Assembly: GCA_018065695.1 (NCBI GenBank)
Contig: JAGHST010000001.1
Location: forward strand, 1-59,790
Reading direction: 5' to 3'
DNA: 59,790 nucleotides
Source: Candidatus Cacconaster caballi
Lineage (GTDB): Bacteria > Bacteroidota > Bacteroidia > Bacteroidales > UBA932
Below the pieces are notes generated by a model. The model saw nothing but the letters and a program-made list of their open reading frames with translations, searched no databases and was not told the DNA's origin. Positions within the stretch are counted from its first letter, which is position 1. Each line of letters opens with the position of its first letter. The position numbers and the translations under genes are program-made. This document shows positions 40,724 to 48,460 of the stretch, piece by piece.

Positions 40724-41692
40724 TCAGTCCATAGATTGTCCGGTGGTCTGGGAAACAGTCACCGTTTCAGAGTAGTTCAAAGGATTGAGTTCGGCAAAGA
40801 AATAATCGGCCGGGTCCTGGCACCTGCCGTTGCGCCATATTTCGTAGTGGAGGCAGGAGGCGAAGGACATACCGCTCATCCCGACCTTGCCTATCACATC
40901 CCCCTGCTTTACCGTCTGCCCCTTCCTGACGGTTCTGATCTCCCCCAGATGTGAGTACTTCGTGATGAAACCGCCATCGTGCACCACTTCAATCGTATTT
41001 CCCATCCCCTTGCCGGACCTGACCACATCGGTGACCACGCCGTCGGCAGTACAGAGAACATCCGTCCCGACCGGAGCCATAAGGTCCATACCCTGATGGT
41101 CCCGCATTGTCTTGAAGAAAGGATTCACCCTCCTGCCCACGGAAGCACCGGCCTGCAGTGTCTTGAAGTCGGGTATCGGAACGATGGACGGGATGGAAGT
41201 CGGCTTCACGCCGCCCCGGCCGAGGGCCTGATTGGCCACCGCAATCCAATAGTTCACTCTGTTGACACTGTATTCAAGACTTCTGGCAGTCTTGGCAGTA
41301 TTGCATATCAGTTCCTTGTCGGAGAATTCGTCCATCCTTGTCCAATCCACGTACAGAGAATCAGGGACACCTTCGCCGGCAAGCAGCGGAATCTCGGCAT
41401 CGAATATATCGCGATAGATTGTATGGTCTCTCACTGACAGAAAGTCCACCACCTTGTCCACCAACCGGATATCCTGTTCCAGCCGCTCACATTCAGCCTT
41501 CAGGCGACGGTTCTCCTCCATAAGTTTCTTTTCGTGGTCCGTGCTGAAGAGAAGGGCCAGGAGCACATAGCACACGACAGCTATCAGCAGGCTCAATGCC
41601 AGATACCTGACACCCGCGCGGAGATAACTTCCCATGCCTGCCTTCCTCGGACGGAACTTCATATTCTCCCTGTCGAAAACAAAGTGCCTCAT
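40724..41692 (-). CDS. M23-family (LytM) membrane protein with altered catalytic motif
   Basis: A 322-residue protein with one N-terminal membrane helix (YLALSLLIAVVCYVLLALLF, about 30-50), a coiled coil (about 55-80) and a C-terminal LytM domain. HxxxD is intact (RDHQGMDLMAPVG), but the HxH motif reads SCLHYEIW, so the first histidine, a catalytic residue in active LytM enzymes, is a cysteine. The paralogue next door keeps GPHLHYEV. This copy may therefore be a regulator or scaffold of murein hydrolysis, as described for some LytM factors. Confidence 0.85.
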   Translation of the reverse strand: MRHFVFDRENMKFRPRKAGMGSYLRAGVRYLALSLLIAVVCYVLLALLFSTDHEKKLMEENRRLKAECERLEQDIRLVDKVVDFLSVRDHTIYRDIFDAEIPLLAGEGVPDSLYVDWTRMDEFSDKELICNTAKTARSLEYSVNRVNYWIAVANQALGRGGVKPTSIPSIVPIPDFKTLQAGASVGRRVNPFFKTMRDHQGMDLMAPVGTDVLCTADGVVTDVVRSGKGMGNTIEVVHDGGFITKYSHLGEIRTVRKGQTVKQGDVIGKVGMSGMSFASCLHYEIWRNGRCQDPADYFFAELNPLNYSETVTVSQTTGQSMD

Positions 41693-41693
41693 A

Positions 41694-42656
41694 CTACCTG
41701 TTCACCTCCTTTATGAGTTTGGAATAGTCCGCATCGGAAATGTCGTTGCTCAGAAAGTTCCACGGATTCATCAACTTGCCCATATACATCACTTCGTAGT
41801 GGAGATGCGGGCCGGTGGAGAGTCCGCTGTTGCCCAGAGAGGCGATGCGCTCCCCCTTCTGCACCTTCTGGCCTTCGTGGACGAACGCTTCCTTGAGGTG
41901 GGCGTATCGTGTACTGTAGCCGAAACCGTGCTCTATCACGACGCTGTTGCCGTAGCCGAAGAAATTGTAATAGACGGCCTTTACGACACCGTCGCCGGTG
42001 GCGTAGATGTCAGTGCCGGGCTTGCCCGCGAAGTCTATGCCGCTGTGAAAGACCGTTTGCTTCCTGACGGGATGAAACCGCCAGCCGAACGAACTGGTTA
42101 TTCGTATATTACTCAATTTCACCGGGCTTATCGAAGGAACGCAGGAGGCCATATCGCCCGCCCGCTTTGCGAGCAGTTCCACGTCATCGAACGAACGGGA
42201 CTGGACAATCGCCCGCTTGGTGAGAACATCCATTTTTCTGGCCGTCGAAATCATAAGATCGCAGTGGGCGAAATCCTGAAGATATGAATACCGGTCATCT
42301 CCTCCGAAGCCGGCCATACGCACCTCTGATGGAATTTCCTGCATTCCGAATACCGGACGGTAAACGGTGTTGTCGCGCCGCTGTATTTCTGCCAGCAACG
42401 AGTTCTTCGACTCGATTTCTCCCGTGTACATCTGCAGTTTCGCCACCAGTTCCCTGTTCTGCCTTTCCAGCAGAGCCTCCTTCGGCGTCCTCAGCCCCAG
42501 CACGCCGGTGTAGATGTAGAAGTAGAAGAAGAAACACCCTACTCCTATGGCCAGCAGCGCCGCACACTTGAGCAGCACCGTTTTCACGGAAATGCGCACG
42601 ACGTCGTAAGAGAGCGTCTTGTGGTTGAACGTATATCTCTTCTCTCCAATAATCAT
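41694..42656 (-). CDS. M23-family (LytM) peptidase, membrane-anchored
   Basis: A 320-residue protein. I start at ATG 42656 (MIIGEKRYTFNHKTLSYDVV), because the frame upstream runs through the alaS promoter repeats. One membrane helix (CAALLAIGVGCFFFYFYIYTG) is followed by a coiled coil and a LytM domain with HSGIDFAGKPGTD and GPHLHYEV, both zinc motifs intact. It probably cleaves peptidoglycan cross-links. It lies 1 nt upstream of the second M23 gene. Confidence 0.9.
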   Translation of the reverse strand: MIIGEKRYTFNHKTLSYDVVRISVKTVLLKCAALLAIGVGCFFFYFYIYTGVLGLRTPKEALLERQNRELVAKLQMYTGEIESKNSLLAEIQRRDNTVYRPVFGMQEIPSEVRMAGFGGDDRYSYLQDFAHCDLMISTARKMDVLTKRAIVQSRSFDDVELLAKRAGDMASCVPSISPVKLSNIRITSSFGWRFHPVRKQTVFHSGIDFAGKPGTDIYATGDGVVKAVYYNFFGYGNSVVIEHGFGYSTRYAHLKEAFVHEGQKVQKGERIASLGNSGLSTGPHLHYEVMYMGKLMNPWNFLSNDISDADYSKLIKEVNR

Positions 42657-42662
42657 AACTTG

Positions 42663-42670
42663 CAAATTTA
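42663..42670 (-). promoter_or_regulatory. -7 element of the M23 operon, near-leaderless
   Basis: TAAATTTG (42670-42663), only 6 nt before the ATG at 42656, so the transcript would begin at or next to the start codon. No good TTG at -33. Confidence 0.45.
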
Positions 42671-42701
42671 CTAAAAATTTCTTTATAAGATGCCACCTCC
42701 G

Positions 42702-42739
42702 AAGGTTGTGAAAGTTGTGGAAATTGTGTAATTTTGTAG
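42702..42739 (+). promoter_or_regulatory. alaS: alaS promoter with four 9-bp repeats
   Basis: TTG (42706-42708), 20-nt spacer, TAATTTTG (42729-42736). The region is built from four degenerate 9-bp units of the form (A)(G/A)(G/T)TTGTG(A/G/T)A. Predicted start near 42743. Confidence 0.6.
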
Positions 42740-42763
42740 TTTGGATAATTTTTGAGAAAAGAT

Positions 42764-45394
42764 ATGACATCAAAAGAAATCAGAAAGACTTTTACAGACT
42801 TCTTCGCTTCGAAGGGGCACAGGATTGTGGCATCGGCGCCGATGGTGGTAAAGAATGACCCGACCCTGATGTTCACCAATGCAGGCATGAACCAGTTCAA
42901 GGATATTTTTCTCGGCAATGCCGCGCCTGAGGCCATAAGAGTGGCCGATAGCCAGAAATGCTTGAGAGTCAGCGGAAAACATAATGACCTGGAAGAAGTC
43001 GGACACGATACTTACCACCACACGATGTTCGAGATGCTCGGCAACTGGAGCTTCGGCGACTACTTCAAGGAGGAAGCCATCGCCTGGGCCTGGGAACTTC
43101 TCACGCAAGTGTACGGCCTGCCGAAGGAACGTCTCTACGCCACCGTTTTCGAAGGATATGAGAAGGACGGCCTCTCAATGGATAAGGAGGCATACGACAT
43201 CTGGAAGAAATATCTCCCTGAAAGTCATATCATCAAAGGCAACAAGCACGACAATTTCTGGGAGATGGGCGACACCGGCCCGTGCGGCCCGTGCAGCGAA
43301 ATCCACATGGATCTGCGCAGCGATGCGGAAAGGGCTCAGATATCCGGAGCCGAAATGGTCAACAAGGGCCATCACCTCGTCATTGAGATATGGAACCTCG
43401 TGTTCATGCAGTACAACCGCAAGGCAAACGGTTCGCTGGAGCAGCTGCCGGCCAAGCACGTCGATACCGGTATGGGATTCGAACGCCTGTGCATGGCACT
43501 TCAGGGCAAGCAGAGCAACTACGATACAGATGTCTTCAGCGGCATGATAAACGAAATCTCACGCCTGAGCGGTGTAAAATACGAGCCTGACACTCAGATT
43601 GGAGTCGCAATGCGCGTGATTGCGGACCATATCCGTGCCATATGCTTCTCCATCACCGACGGACAGTTGCCCGGCAACGTGAAGGCCGGCTACGTAATCC
43701 GTCGTATCCTGCGCCGTGCTGTCCGCTACGGATATACTTTCCTCGGATTCCGCGAACCTTTCCTCTGCCGCCTCGTGCCGCAGCTTGTAAAGGATATGGG
43801 CGAAGCATTCCCGGAAATAGCCCAGCAGGAATCTCTAGTCTCCCGTGTGGTCAAGGAGGAGGAAGACACCTTCCTGCGCACCCTTGAACGCGGCATAAAA
43901 TTCATCTCCGACTATATGGCCGCCCATAAGGATGATGCAGATAAAATAATTCTCGGAGTCAATGCATTCACCCTGTATGACACCTACGGCTTCCCTATTG
44001 ACCTTACTCAGCTGATAGCCAAGGAGCACGGCTATCAAGTGGATATGGAGGGCTTCAACGTCGAGCTTCAGAAGCAGAAAGAGCGCGCCCGCAACGCCAC
44101 CGCCATCGAAAACGGAGACTGGGTGGAGATTCTGCCGTTCAGCAGCTGCGAATATGTCGGATACGACACAGACAGTTGCCTTGGGCGCCTGATGAAGTAC
44201 CGGACCGTCAAAGCGAAGGGCAAGGAAATGTTGCAGATGGTATTCGACCGTACGCCGTTCTACGGCGAGATGGGAGGCGAAGTGGGAGATACAGGCACCA
44301 TCCGCTCTTCCGACGGTGAAAAGATACGCATCATCAACACCATAAAGGAGAACAACCTCACGATACACATAGCGGAACATCTCCCTTCAAATTTCGAAAG
44401 CAATTTCATTCTTGAAGTGGACACCCCGCGCAAGCGCAGGATTGCGGCAAACCACACCTGCACGCACCTGCTGCATCAGGCGCTTCGTGAGATTCTCGGA
44501 AGCCACGTGGAACAGAAAGGCTCCTTTGTGTGTGACAGTTATTTCCGCTTCGACTTCTCACATTTCGAAAAACTCTCCGCAGAGCAGATCCGCAAGGTGG
44601 AGAGCCGTGTGAACGAACTCATTCGCGAAAACAATCCTCTCGTGGAAAAGCGTGACGCCACAATGGAAGAGGCCCGCTCTCAGGGCGCAATGGCTCTCTT
44701 CGGAGAAAAGTACGGAGACAGGGTGCGCATTGTGCGCTTCGGCGAAAGCGTCGAGCTTTGCGGCGGATGCCACGCAGGTGCCACCGGCGAAGTCGGAATC
44801 TTCCGCATCAAGGCCGAAAGTGCCGTTGCCGCCGGCATCCGGCGCATCGAGGCCGTAACCGGCATCGCTGCCGAAGCCCTCATAAACGACGCAGAAGACA
44901 CTCTTCGCTCGGCAAAAGCCCTCCTGGGCAATGCTCAGGATGTGACAGGCGCCATCTCCAGACTGTTGGAAGAAAACGAAAAACTCAAGAAACAGATGGA
45001 GGAGGTGGAAAAGGAACGCACAATTGCGCTCAAGAAAGAGTTGCTGTCCGCCGCCGAGGAGAGAAGCGGTCGCAGAATCGTGACAGTCGGCGGAGGAAAG
45101 TTCGAAGGTACCGACCCCGCCCTGTTGCGCAACGCCGCATTCGCCCTTCAGAAAGAGACTGAAAACTTCATAATAGCATCCGCCATTTCGGTGGAGGGCA
45201 AGCCGCAACTGCTGCTGATGTACTCTGCGGACCTGGTTGCCGCCGGCAAGAATGCACAGTCCGACATCAAGGAGGCGGCAAAGCTCATCCAGGGAGGCGG
45301 AGGCGGTCAGGGAGGACTTGCCACTGCAGGCGGCAGGAACGAAGCGGGCCTGAGCGCCGCTCTTGCACTTCTCGTGGAACTTTCACTCAAATAG
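42764..45394 (+). CDS. alaS: Alanyl-tRNA synthetase
   Basis: An 876-residue class II synthetase. Catalytic domain: FFASKGHRIVASAPMVVKNDPTLMFTNAGMNQFK, with motif 2 region DTYHHTMFEMLGNWSFGDYFK and motif 3 GMGFERL. Editing domain: AANHTCTHLLHQALREILG (HxxxH) and LCGGCHAGATGEVG (Cys-x-x-x-His). The C-Ala domain ends GGGGGQGGLATAGGRNEAG. I take ATG 42764 (MTSKEIRKTF); the frame reaches a TTG at 42752 with no support. It leads an operon with the fused permease-formyltransferase. Confidence 0.97.
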   Translation: MTSKEIRKTFTDFFASKGHRIVASAPMVVKNDPTLMFTNAGMNQFKDIFLGNAAPEAIRVADSQKCLRVSGKHNDLEEVGHDTYHHTMFEMLGNWSFGDYFKEEAIAWAWELLTQVYGLPKERLYATVFEGYEKDGLSMDKEAYDIWKKYLPESHIIKGNKHDNFWEMGDTGPCGPCSEIHMDLRSDAERAQISGAEMVNKGHHLVIEIWNLVFMQYNRKANGSLEQLPAKHVDTGMGFERLCMALQGKQSNYDTDVFSGMINEISRLSGVKYEPDTQIGVAMRVIADHIRAICFSITDGQLPGNVKAGYVIRRILRRAVRYGYTFLGFREPFLCRLVPQLVKDMGEAFPEIAQQESLVSRVVKEEEDTFLRTLERGIKFISDYMAAHKDDADKIILGVNAFTLYDTYGFPIDLTQLIAKEHGYQVDMEGFNVELQKQKERARNATAIENGDWVEILPFSSCEYVGYDTDSCLGRLMKYRTVKAKGKEMLQMVFDRTPFYGEMGGEVGDTGTIRSSDGEKIRIINTIKENNLTIHIAEHLPSNFESNFILEVDTPRKRRIAANHTCTHLLHQALREILGSHVEQKGSFVCDSYFRFDFSHFEKLSAEQIRKVESRVNELIRENNPLVEKRDATMEEARSQGAMALFGEKYGDRVRIVRFGESVELCGGCHAGATGEVGIFRIKAESAVAAGIRRIEAVTGIAAEALINDAEDTLRSAKALLGNAQDVTGAISRLLEENEKLKKQMEEVEKERTIALKKELLSAAEERSGRRIVTVGGGKFEGTDPALLRNAAFALQKETENFIIASAISVEGKPQLLLMYSADLVAAGKNAQSDIKEAAKLIQGGGGGQGGLATAGGRNEAGLSAALALLVELSLK

Positions 45395-45405: not shown

Positions 45406-47829
45406 ATGAAGAAGCTCTACCGATATATCATCACGTCATTCCTCGGTCCGTTTTTCGCGGTCCTTTTTGTCGTGGTATTCGCCCTCTCGATGCAGTTCCT
45501 GTGGGTTTATATCGATGAGCTTGTAGGCAAGGGTCTCGGGCTGGGTGTCATAATGGAATTCATGGGATGGGCGGCCTGCACACTGTTGCCGCGTGCACTG
45601 CCTCTCGCCACACTTCTGGCTTCCATAATGACTATGGGCAACTTCGGAGAACGCAACGAGCTGCTTGCCATGAAGGCAGCCGGAATCTCTCTGACGAAAG
45701 CGATGGTCCCGATCATCGGGCTTTCCATCTTCATAAGCATCGGAGCTTTCTTCGCATCCAACAGCCTTGTGCCCTACGCATTCAACAGAATCCTTACACT
45801 GCGTGCAGATATCGGCCGCACGAAAGAAGAGATAAAAATCCCTACCGGCACTTTCTATGACGGCATCGAAGGCTACATAATGCATATAAACTCCACAGAC
45901 AAGAAGTCAGGAATGATGCACGACCTTGTGGTGTATGACCATACCGCAAACAACGGCAATGTCAGTATGACTCTGGCCGATTCCGGCAAAATAACCATCA
46001 CTCCCGACAAGCAGGAGCTTATCTTCGAACTCTTCAGCGGATGCCAGTATCACGAAGACAATACCCTCAACTACAGGGACACGTCTCTCCAGCTGGACAG
46101 GACCGACTTCAATTACCAGAAGCTCATAGTCCCTCTGGAGAACTACAGTTTCACCCGGTCCGAGGAGAATGAATTCAGCGATGAAATCAAGACAAAGGGG
46201 CTGAAAGAGTTGCACCACAACAGGGATTCTCTTCAGAAAGAACTTGACTCCGTATTTGTCATCCAGTACAAAAGATTTCTCGCAAGCGGAACTTTCGAGA
46301 GAATATCGTACCTGGATACATCATTCAGCCATAAGGAGTTGGCTGACTCTTTCCAACGGGACAGCCTTATGGCCTCCATCTCTCCGAGAACCGAAATCCT
46401 CGCCCTGGAGAATGCCCGGGATAAAATGAAGGAAGCCTCCGAAACCATTGAAAACTTCGACAGAGGGACATATAACTACATCGAACCGATACGGAGAATG
46501 AATATCTCCATCTTCCAGAAATTCACTCTGTCAATGGCCTGTCTTCTCTTCTTCTTCATAGGAGCGCCTCTTGGGGCCATCATCAGAAAAGGAGGACTGG
46601 GGACTCCGGTAGTCATTTCAGTATTCTTCTATCTGCTGTATTATATCATAGATATGATCGGAGAGAAACTTGCGCGAAGCGGAGCAGTTCTGCCTGTCAC
46701 CGGCACCATCATCTCCACTATGGTACTCATTCCGATAGGTTGGTTCCTCACGAAGAAATCCACTCAGGACTCCGCACTTTTCAACGCAGATTCCTATCTC
46801 GAATTCTTCAGAACGGTGAAAAAGAAGATTTCCAAAACATACAACAGGATAATGAACCATTTCAGAAAAGGCGGCGCGAAAATCCGCATTGTCTATATGG
46901 GTACGCCCGAATTTGCCGTGGCGCCGCTCGAAGCTCTGCTCGAGAGCGGATATGAAGTTGCGGCGGTAGTCACCGTACCGGACAAGCCGAGCGGCAGGGG
47001 GCTTAACGTCAATGAAAGTGCCGTAAAGAAATATGCCGTAGAACACGGACTGAGAGTGCTTCAGCCGGAGAAGTTACGTGACCCGCAGTTTATCGGGGAG
47101 CTCTCATCCATTGGTGCCAATCTGTTCGTGGTGGTAGCCTTCAGGATGCTGCCTGAAGTTGTGTGGAGTATGCCGGCTCTCGGAACTTTCAACCTGCACG
47201 CTTCGCTGCTTCCTCAATATCGGGGCGCAGCCCCTATAAACTGGGCCATCATCAACGGCGAAAAGTTTACCGGTGTCACCACCTTTATGATTGACAAGGA
47301 GATAGACACAGGCAAAATCATCTTCCAGGAATCCTGTGCAATAGACGATTTCGACGATGCAGGGTCGCTTCACGACAAACTTATGAAGATGGGCAGCGCG
47401 CTTGTCGTCAAGACCGTGGATGCAATCGAAGACCGCAACATAAAGCCGTACGAGCAGGAAGCATCAATGTTGCGTGCCATCCGCCCTGCTCCAAAACTCA
47501 CCAAAGAGACCTGCCGCATAGATTGGGCCCAAAGCGCATTGAGCATCAACAACCTCATACGCGGCCTCAGTCCTTACCCTGCAGCATACACCCTCATCGA
47601 AAAGGATGGCAGTCAACTGAGCGCGAAGATTTTTGACGCTTATGTCGTCAAAAGCGAAAGCGATGCTCCCCAGGGATCCGTCATCACCGACGGCCGGACA
47701 TATCTTGAAATAAAGTGCGGAACAAATGCCCTTCGCATTGTCAATCTGCAACTTGCCGGAAAGAAAAGAATGGATGTGAAGGCCTTTCTTTTAGGATTCA
47801 GGGAACCTGAAAACTGCCGATTTGTATAA
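45406..47829 (+). CDS. fmt: LptF/LptG permease fused to methionyl-tRNA formyltransferase
   Basis: An 807-residue open frame joining two normally separate proteins. Residues 1-455 are a YjgP/YjgQ (LptF/G) permease: N-terminal helices (LYRYIITSFLGPFFAVLFVVVFALSM), GNFGERNELLAMKAAG, a periplasmic jellyroll (about 140-290) and C-terminal helices (FTLSMACLLFFFIGAPLGAIIRKGGLG). After a basic linker (KKKISKTYNRIMNHFRKGG) residues about 490-807 are a full formyltransferase: IRIVYMGTPEFAV, FNLHASLLPQYRGAAPINWAI (Asn and His of the active site), DKEIDTGK (catalytic Asp), C-terminal OB domain. An in-frame ATG at 46852 would give a 325-residue stand-alone Fmt, so internal initiation is possible. It lies 11 nt after alaS. 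Confidence 0.9.
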   Translation: MKKLYRYIITSFLGPFFAVLFVVVFALSMQFLWVYIDELVGKGLGLGVIMEFMGWAACTLLPRALPLATLLASIMTMGNFGERNELLAMKAAGISLTKAMVPIIGLSIFISIGAFFASNSLVPYAFNRILTLRADIGRTKEEIKIPTGTFYDGIEGYIMHINSTDKKSGMMHDLVVYDHTANNGNVSMTLADSGKITITPDKQELIFELFSGCQYHEDNTLNYRDTSLQLDRTDFNYQKLIVPLENYSFTRSEENEFSDEIKTKGLKELHHNRDSLQKELDSVFVIQYKRFLASGTFERISYLDTSFSHKELADSFQRDSLMASISPRTEILALENARDKMKEASETIENFDRGTYNYIEPIRRMNISIFQKFTLSMACLLFFFIGAPLGAIIRKGGLGTPVVISVFFYLLYYIIDMIGEKLARSGAVLPVTGTIISTMVLIPIGWFLTKKSTQDSALFNADSYLEFFRTVKKKISKTYNRIMNHFRKGGAKIRIVYMGTPEFAVAPLEALLESGYEVAAVVTVPDKPSGRGLNVNESAVKKYAVEHGLRVLQPEKLRDPQFIGELSSIGANLFVVVAFRMLPEVVWSMPALGTFNLHASLLPQYRGAAPINWAIINGEKFTGVTTFMIDKEIDTGKIIFQESCAIDDFDDAGSLHDKLMKMGSALVVKTVDAIEDRNIKPYEQEASMLRAIRPAPKLTKETCRIDWAQSALSINNLIRGLSPYPAAYTLIEKDGSQLSAKIFDAYVVKSESDAPQGSVITDGRTYLEIKCGTNALRIVNLQLAGKKRMDVKAFLLGFREPENCRFV

Positions 47830-48460
47830 GCTCAATCATATCGTGATATTGGCCGACGGAGATTTTCCGACAGCGGCACCGGCTCTTGGCGCGCTTCGCC
47901 ACGCACAGCGGGTTGTCTGCTGCGACGGATCCGCCGCCGGGATGCTTCGCAGAGGAGTCGTACCTGACGCCATTGTAGGCGATATGGACAGTCTTGACCC
48001 GGAGTTGCAGGAACGCTACGCCGACATCATAGTGCGGGACTGCGAACAGGAAACCAACGACCTTTGCAAGGCTTTCCGTTATGTTCTCACTCTGAATCCA
48101 ACAGAGATAACCATTCTCGGAGCGAGCGGTGGAAGAGAAGACCACACTCTGGGCAACATATCACATCTTATTGAATTCACGGCCCAGGCTCCATGCCCTG
48201 TGCAAATCCTCACCGAGACCGGACGTTTCATAGCGATTCTGGGCAGTGCCACCCTACGTTGCGTGGAAGGCACTCAGATATCCATATTCGCCTTCGATCC
48301 AACATTGAAAATAAAATCGGCCGGATTGAAGTATCCGACCGATTCGGTAATTTTCGATGCTCTATGGAAAGCGACCCTCAACGAAGCCTCTTCAAGCAAG
48401 GTCACTCTCTCATTCAATCATCCATCAGGCGTTCTGATATTTCTTGCCGATAACCTCTAG
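47822..48460 (+). CDS. Thiamine pyrophosphokinase
   Basis: A 212-residue enzyme that makes thiamine diphosphate from thiamine and ATP. Motifs: VILADGDFP, RVVCCDGSAAGML, VGDMDSLDPEL, QETNDLCKAF (Asp for metal) and LGASGGREDHTLGN. No ATG fits; the best start is TTG 47822, which overlaps the formyltransferase stop by 8 nt and gives MYKLNHIVILADGD. A GTG a few codons later is an alternative. It is the third gene of the alaS operon and its 3' end overlaps the convergent dehydrogenase gene by 36 bp. Confidence 0.9.
   Translation: MYKLNHIVILADGDFPTAAPALGALRHAQRVVCCDGSAAGMLRRGVVPDAIVGDMDSLDPELQERYADIIVRDCEQETNDLCKAFRYVLTLNPTEITILGASGGREDHTLGNISHLIEFTAQAPCPVQILTETGRFIAILGSATLRCVEGTQISIFAFDPTLKIKSAGLKYPTDSVIFDALWKATLNEASSSKVTLSFNHPSGVLIFLADNL

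Follow-up and report, generated by a model that had tools for sequence, protein, structure and literature searches.

The genome of Candidatus Cacconaster caballi carries a gene in which an LptF/LptG-family permease and a methionyl-tRNA formyltransferase (Fmt) are joined in one reading frame. Its product is probably one bifunctional inner-membrane protein that serves both in LPS transport and in the formylation of Met-tRNAfMet, with the Fmt part on the cytosolic face of the membrane. As far as can be judged from sequence, this reading is carried by the single frame, the completeness of both domains, a constrained linker, the role of the gene as sole Fmt gene and the retention of the fusion throughout a clade. 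Fmt is generally considered a soluble protein that all bacteria have in their cytosol. Both parts of the fusion are known proteins and the fusion itself is apparently undescribed; literature searches, judged by titles and the openings of abstracts, brought up no description of an lptF-fmt fusion. The gene is thus surprising in its combination and ordinary in its likely route of origin.

Architecture of the fused gene

The analysed window is a stretch of 59,790 nucleotides, in which the following features are of relevance:

42752..45394, + strand: alaS, the upstream neighbour (TIGR00344); a TTG start is listed and the true start may lie downstream
45406..47829, + strand: fused lptF-fmt gene; open frame, found uninterrupted in 36 of the 40 genomes of the genus, its own included
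45421..46755, + strand: LptF/LptG permease domain, residues 6-450 (PF03739); six membrane helices around a periplasmic domain in the AlphaFold2 model
46756..46878, + strand: basic linker, residues 451-491, recognised by its charge, a model helix at 461-486 and its constrained length and sequence
46852..46854, + strand: in-frame ATG (Met483), the internal start proposed in the sequence-only reading; not conserved
46885..47415, + strand: Fmt catalytic domain Formyl_trans_N, residues 494-670, with Asn596, His598 and Asp634 (PF00551, TIGR00460, 1fmt alignment)
47494..47799, + strand: Fmt C-terminal domain Formyl_trans_C, residues 697-798, the sole match in the genome (PF02911)
47822..48460, + strand: thiamine pyrophosphokinase gene, the downstream neighbour (TIGR01378)

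In the open reading frames of the window, the fused gene is one frame of 807 codons followed by a stop; it starts with ATG and has no internal stop. An in-frame fusion of a whole permease with a whole Fmt had been proposed from the letters alone, and the uninterrupted frame with two complete domains confirms it. In the Pfam search, LptF_LptG covers residues 6-450 (E 7.7e-65; score 219.7 against a gathering score of 27.9) and positions 1-352 of the 353 in the profile, while Formyl_trans_N and Formyl_trans_C match residues 494-670 (E 4.7e-34) and 697-798 (E 6.5e-25), respectively. The methionyl-tRNA formyltransferase part is complete and spans residues 494-800.

The structure of the fused protein was predicted with AlphaFold2 from 12 sequences, and the model is weak (mean pLDDT 64, pTM 0.39). 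With this low confidence, it contains six long membrane helices, a periplasmic domain of strands, a helical linker and a well-formed Fmt. Five of the six helices of this model exceed the threshold in a hydropathy scan; the one at residues 60-77 lies below it. In a Foldseek search with the model, Fmt structures rank first (1fmt_A, TM-score on the target 0.88) and LptF chains rank lower (5x5y_F, 0.58, with a poor rmsd of 16 A).

The gene follows alaS, which ends 11 bases before its ATG, and alaS lies upstream of the fused gene in all 36 genus loci. Downstream, the listed TTG of the thiamine pyrophosphokinase gene overlaps the stop of the fused gene by 8 bases; a match to this kinase was found downstream on the same strand in 15 of the 36 genus loci, where 0.8-2.0 kb were examined. 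The suggestion that translation is unusually coupled in this operon finds no support: the gap that follows alaS is usually short, whether the genes are fused or not. On the other side of alaS, two adjacent genes for M23-family peptidases face away from it (40724-42773, - strand). The listed start of one of them overlaps that of alaS, so at least one of the two starts has probably been set too far upstream.

The permease and formyltransferase halves

The permease half misses the cut-offs of the NCBIfam equivalogs TIGR04407 (136.6 vs 230) and TIGR04408 (106.9 vs 240) for LptF and LptG. It is therefore named an LptF/LptG-family permease here, and LptF is used as shorthand. The genome of the window also encodes a second protein with PF03739, the LptF/LptG permease family, and LptB (364 bits, cut-off 240). 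LptF has a topology of six membrane helices. Among the LptF-family frames of the loci viewed, most are about 480-500 residues long, compared with 629-681 residues in four of them (L070, L071, L072, L075); long LptF frames also appeared in the order-wide listing (G509, G784), and that of G087 has 503 residues.

The Fmt half passes the NCBIfam model TIGR00460 (232.8 bits, cut-off 201.5) and matches 1fmt with a phmmer E-value of 1.5e-59. As the sequence-only reading had claimed, the catalytic residues are in place. Asn596, His598 and Asp634 as well as the SLLP..RGAAP loop line up with E. coli Fmt (1fmt), in which we take the Asn, His and Asp to be the catalytic residues, and N596, H598 and D634 are invariant across 12 fused proteins. 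An assignment to ArnA was rejected, as NF005998 scores 171.8 against a cut-off of 777.

Of 37 genus genomes, 34 have a single Formyl_trans_C domain, and the other three, in which the locus is missing, have none. The 26 further genomes of the family that were checked, 18 of them fused, likewise have exactly one each. Judged by this domain, the fused gene is the sole Fmt gene of the window genome and of every fused genome checked that has a match. Moreover, a peptide deformylase is present in the genome of the window.

Distribution of the fusion

Related genomes were searched for the fused architecture, as had been proposed, in a set of 100 that included 40 of the genus and 20 from other genera of the family. 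An uninterrupted full-length match was found in 36 of the 40 genus genomes, the window's own counted, and the other 35 have 59-64% identity. In a further genus member (G039), the match crosses the joint and is ended by the contig end. In the remaining three, both halves lack a proper match, with none at all in G009 and weak ones in G012 and G031; the last of these is 93% complete and belongs to the same genus, and its lack of the locus may reflect an assembly gap or a real loss. The two halves were seen as separate genes in no member of the genus among the 40 searched. In the other genera, the fusion is present in 6 of 20 genomes (G040, G041, G043, G044, G053, G054) and absent from 14. The scenario that close relatives keep lptF and fmt apart, which would have spoken against the fusion, thus fails within the genus, but it is true of some sister genera.

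A wider draw from the family comprised 398 genomes, and the following counts refer to the 150 matches listed. No stop interrupts 149 of them, a few of which are ended by contig ends; the sole stop-bearing match (G122) belongs to genus g4. By genus code, 82 of the listed matches fall in g62, 37 in g1, 21 in g15, 4 in g6, 3 in g16 and one each in g3 and g5. Among the named records that carry the fusion are Candidatus Merdivivens pullistercoris, Candidatus Merdivivens pullicola and a Candidatus Cryptobacteroides. A search with six peptide patterns, one of them inside the linker, yielded 13 loci in a sample that leans to near relatives; 11 were fused and the other two were Fmt-only matches from other phyla. 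By sequence search, the fusion is thus kept across many species in a family of uncultured gut-type bacteria.

Outside the family, no fusion was found in 387 genomes of the order (393 drawn, 6 of the family), and the strongest match across the joint, in G073, is interrupted by two stops and represents a tandem pair. A draw of 395 genomes from the phylum, in which five of the other genomes were shared with the order draw, returned the fusion in the window's own genome and in none of the 394 others. In both draws, a best E-value was obtained for each genome, and a fusion too diverged to give one joined match could be missed.

Several loci of other families with open frames of about 620-965 residues and Fmt matches looked like further fusions and were rejected. 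Their Fmt frames have 319-329 residues (G653, G464, G707, G604, G484, G505, G686, G592), and in the three loci that were viewed closely (L110, L113, L114) the preceding frame stops just upstream, so these are tandem genes. In these three loci, from other families of the order, a frame of about 600 residues lies in the same reading frame and its stop is about one base triplet before Fmt. Its product presumably resembles a ClC channel with CBS domains, and the gene directly before fmt would thus encode another membrane protein.

Separate genes and the route to fusion

In the 14 unfused genomes of the family, lptF and fmt are adjacent in nine, apart on one contig in two and on different contigs in two; in one, lptF stands alone at a contig end. 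Seven of the nine adjacent pairs have an fmt start, as read, that overlaps the end of lptF out of frame, and in the other two (L065, L068) fmt starts after the lptF stop. Such an out-of-frame overlap looks like the state before fusion. Two separate fmt genes have no ATG before the first motif, and a GTG (L099) and a TTG (L103) that overlap the lptF stop look like their starts. In the g4 and g14 loci (L080-L084, L086-L088), lptF and fmt share the frame and a single TAA lies between them, or TGA and TAA in L080; these loci are one step from fusion. Within g63, the fused G135 and its sister G101 with separate genes differ at the joint by small gaps; this pair demonstrates that minor gaps in the overlap are enough to fuse the genes. 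Genus g2, like g63, contains both the fused and the separate state.

In a tree of 56 rows of LptF and Fmt, the fusion label needs three changes. The fused groups are a clade of 28 rows, all of them fused, g6 with G040, and G135, the last of which is a single draft genome that is 80% complete. No re-split gene was sampled in the 28-row clade. A single fused clade was rejected (p 3.6e-8, with 31 fused rows vs 20), also when G135 was counted as unfused (p 1.9e-4). All trees are quick ones, and rows L060, L117, L123, L084 and L087 are omitted from the test trees; the outgroup row L060 sits on a very long branch, and the outgroup rows do not together form one side of a branch. From the three changes and the rejection of a single clade, it follows that the fusion probably happened more than once.

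The linker and the question of an internal start

The residues around the joint are basic, with 11 Lys and Arg against 3 Asp and Glu in residues 449-492. In 67 fused proteins, the median net charge of the linker is +7 (range +3 to +10), which is consistent with a position on the cytosolic side. In the model, a helix at residues 461-486 follows on from the end of the last membrane helix, with pLDDT below 50 over most of 455-490. The linker is 40 residues long in 32 of 36 genus members. Its pN/pS (residues 461-491) is 0.44, whereas the Fmt C-domain has 0.47, the Fmt N-domain 0.21 and the variable periplasmic part 0.61; as pS of 0.63-0.70 is near saturation, these ratios are rough and the comparison is blunted. 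Synonymous change is not lowered in the linker (pS 0.70 vs 0.63-0.70 elsewhere). Based on pN/pS, constrained length and unreduced pS, we read the linker as a translated, constrained piece of protein and not as an initiation site.

The sequence-only reading had offered two products by internal initiation as one option and had named the ATG at 46852. The two would be the full-length fusion and a free Fmt made from a start inside the linker, at this ATG or another one. The ATG at 46852 encodes residue 483 and indeed leaves an Fmt of 325 residues downstream, as had been stated. Moreover, Shine-Dalgarno sequences are reported to go unrecognised in Bacteroidia (PMC9976891), so a missing motif would not exclude a start there. 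The position was compared in 67 fused frames, from which repeat fetches of the same genome had been removed, with codons counted back from the first Fmt motif, YMGTPEF. An ATG lies at codons -25 to -3 in 22 of the 67 genes and at -45 to -3 in 37. The other 30 lack an ATG at -45 to -3, and 17 genes contain neither ATG nor GTG nor TTG in that range; at -25 to -3, all three are missing from 26. The Met483 column holds Met in 4 of 36 genus members, and in 2 of the 67 genes an ATG lies exactly as far from the motif as in the window; as a conserved internal start, the ATG at 46852 was rejected. The unreduced synonymous change in the linker also speaks against initiation there. What counts against rejecting an internal start altogether is an ATG inside YMGTPEF, which is present in 64 of the 67 genes and in all 26 without a start codon at -25 to -3. 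Initiation at this codon would cost the Fmt fold its first strand, and the same internal Met occurs in separate Fmt proteins. Taken together, the production of two proteins by internal initiation is quite improbable.

Interpretation of the fusion

The single bifunctional protein probably arose from ancestral adjacent lptF and fmt genes behind alaS, which would have become one gene by loss of the stop and start between them. The fused gene would be translated as a single polypeptide of about 90 kDa. By homology, its LptF half would reside in the inner membrane as a subunit of an LptB2FG-type LPS exporter, assembled with LptB and LptG; the last LptF helix would end in the cytosol, where the short basic linker would carry the complete Fmt. 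Topology, assembly, catalytic activity and membrane anchoring are all inferred from related proteins, according to which the fused protein would act in LPS transport and Met-tRNAfMet formylation and Fmt would be anchored to the membrane at the copy number of LptF. The tethering of Fmt that had been suggested from the letters gains indirect support from the constrained linker (pN/pS 0.44, length 40 in 32 of 36) and the sole Formyl_trans_C gene. A possible driver is translation itself: if Shine-Dalgarno pairing is not used, a downstream overlapping gene may be poorly expressed and joining the upstream gene may secure its translation.

An assembly or sequencing artefact, in which a stop or frameshift at the joint was missed, has a next to negligible chance of explaining the fusion. 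All genomes are drafts and largely metagenome-assembled, and the fusion in G135 comes from one such genome; for the main clade, an artefact is contradicted by the same open joint in 67 fused frames from different genomes. With the open frame present in 36 of 40 genus genomes and in other genera, the sequencing error against which the sequence-only reading had cautioned is ruled out. It is also unlikely that the fusion is made as one chain and then cut in the linker by a protease into LptF and Fmt. The linker may be exposed, as suggested by its basic composition and its low confidence in the model; its constrained length and sequence and the predicted helix, which extends the tail of the last membrane helix, speak for an intact joint, but would be compatible with cleavage all the same.

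A different matter is whether the fusion brings a benefit. It is somewhat favoured that the fusion is a neutral accident, in which overlapping tandem genes fuse via small indels, the product is tolerated and the tethering has no meaning. The apparent pre-fusion state is common in the family (out-of-frame overlap in seven of nine adjacent separate pairs), only one or two stops part the genes in the g4 and g14 loci, and small gaps in the overlap were enough in G135 compared with its sister G101. The retention of the fusion in 28 of 28 rows of a deep clade and the constrained linker seem to point the other way, but would equally be expected of a harmless fusion that has become essential. As this possibility concerns the benefit and not the architecture, it overlaps with the bifunctional protein as best explanation. 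That the tethering is functional, with each LPS exporter carrying an Fmt and the joining selected repeatedly in one family, is rather unlikely. If so, the inner membrane would be where initiator-tRNA formylation is concentrated, and the amount of formylated initiator supplied would be tied to envelope growth. In either case, since the only Fmt would lie inside a transporter subunit, formylation and LPS export would share one gene and one dose. The family offers a natural test of how initiator formylation copes with being placed at the membrane, which it may just tolerate or may profit from. It is a clear example of overlapping genes that decayed into a fusion, and the separate state persists in sister genera. 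It also carries a warning for annotation, because naming such genes by one domain loses the other function.

Comparison with known systems

The permease half resembles the LptB2FG permeases (5x5y, 6mit) in its nearly full-length PF03739 domain, its sequence match to the LptF/LptG chains and the presence of LptB. It differs from them by the Fmt at its C-terminus and by scores under the proteobacterial LptF and LptG equivalog cut-offs. Like E. coli Fmt (1fmt/2fmt), the Fmt half has both domains complete, keeps the catalytic residues and passes the TIGR00460 cut-off, whereas it has no conserved start codon of its own and its N-terminus is covalently joined to a membrane protein of six predicted helices. 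ArnA is a formyltransferase fused to a UDP-GlcA decarboxylase; it belongs, as the matches indicate, to the same superfamily as Fmt and is likewise naturally part of a fusion. In ArnA, however, the formyl domain is N-terminal and the enzyme, a soluble protein, acts on a sugar nucleotide, while Fmt is C-terminal in the fused protein. Further counterparts are the adjacent separate lptF and fmt genes of the sister genera, which stand in the same order, behind alaS in seven of nine cases, but are read in two frames that usually overlap by a few to some tens of bases.
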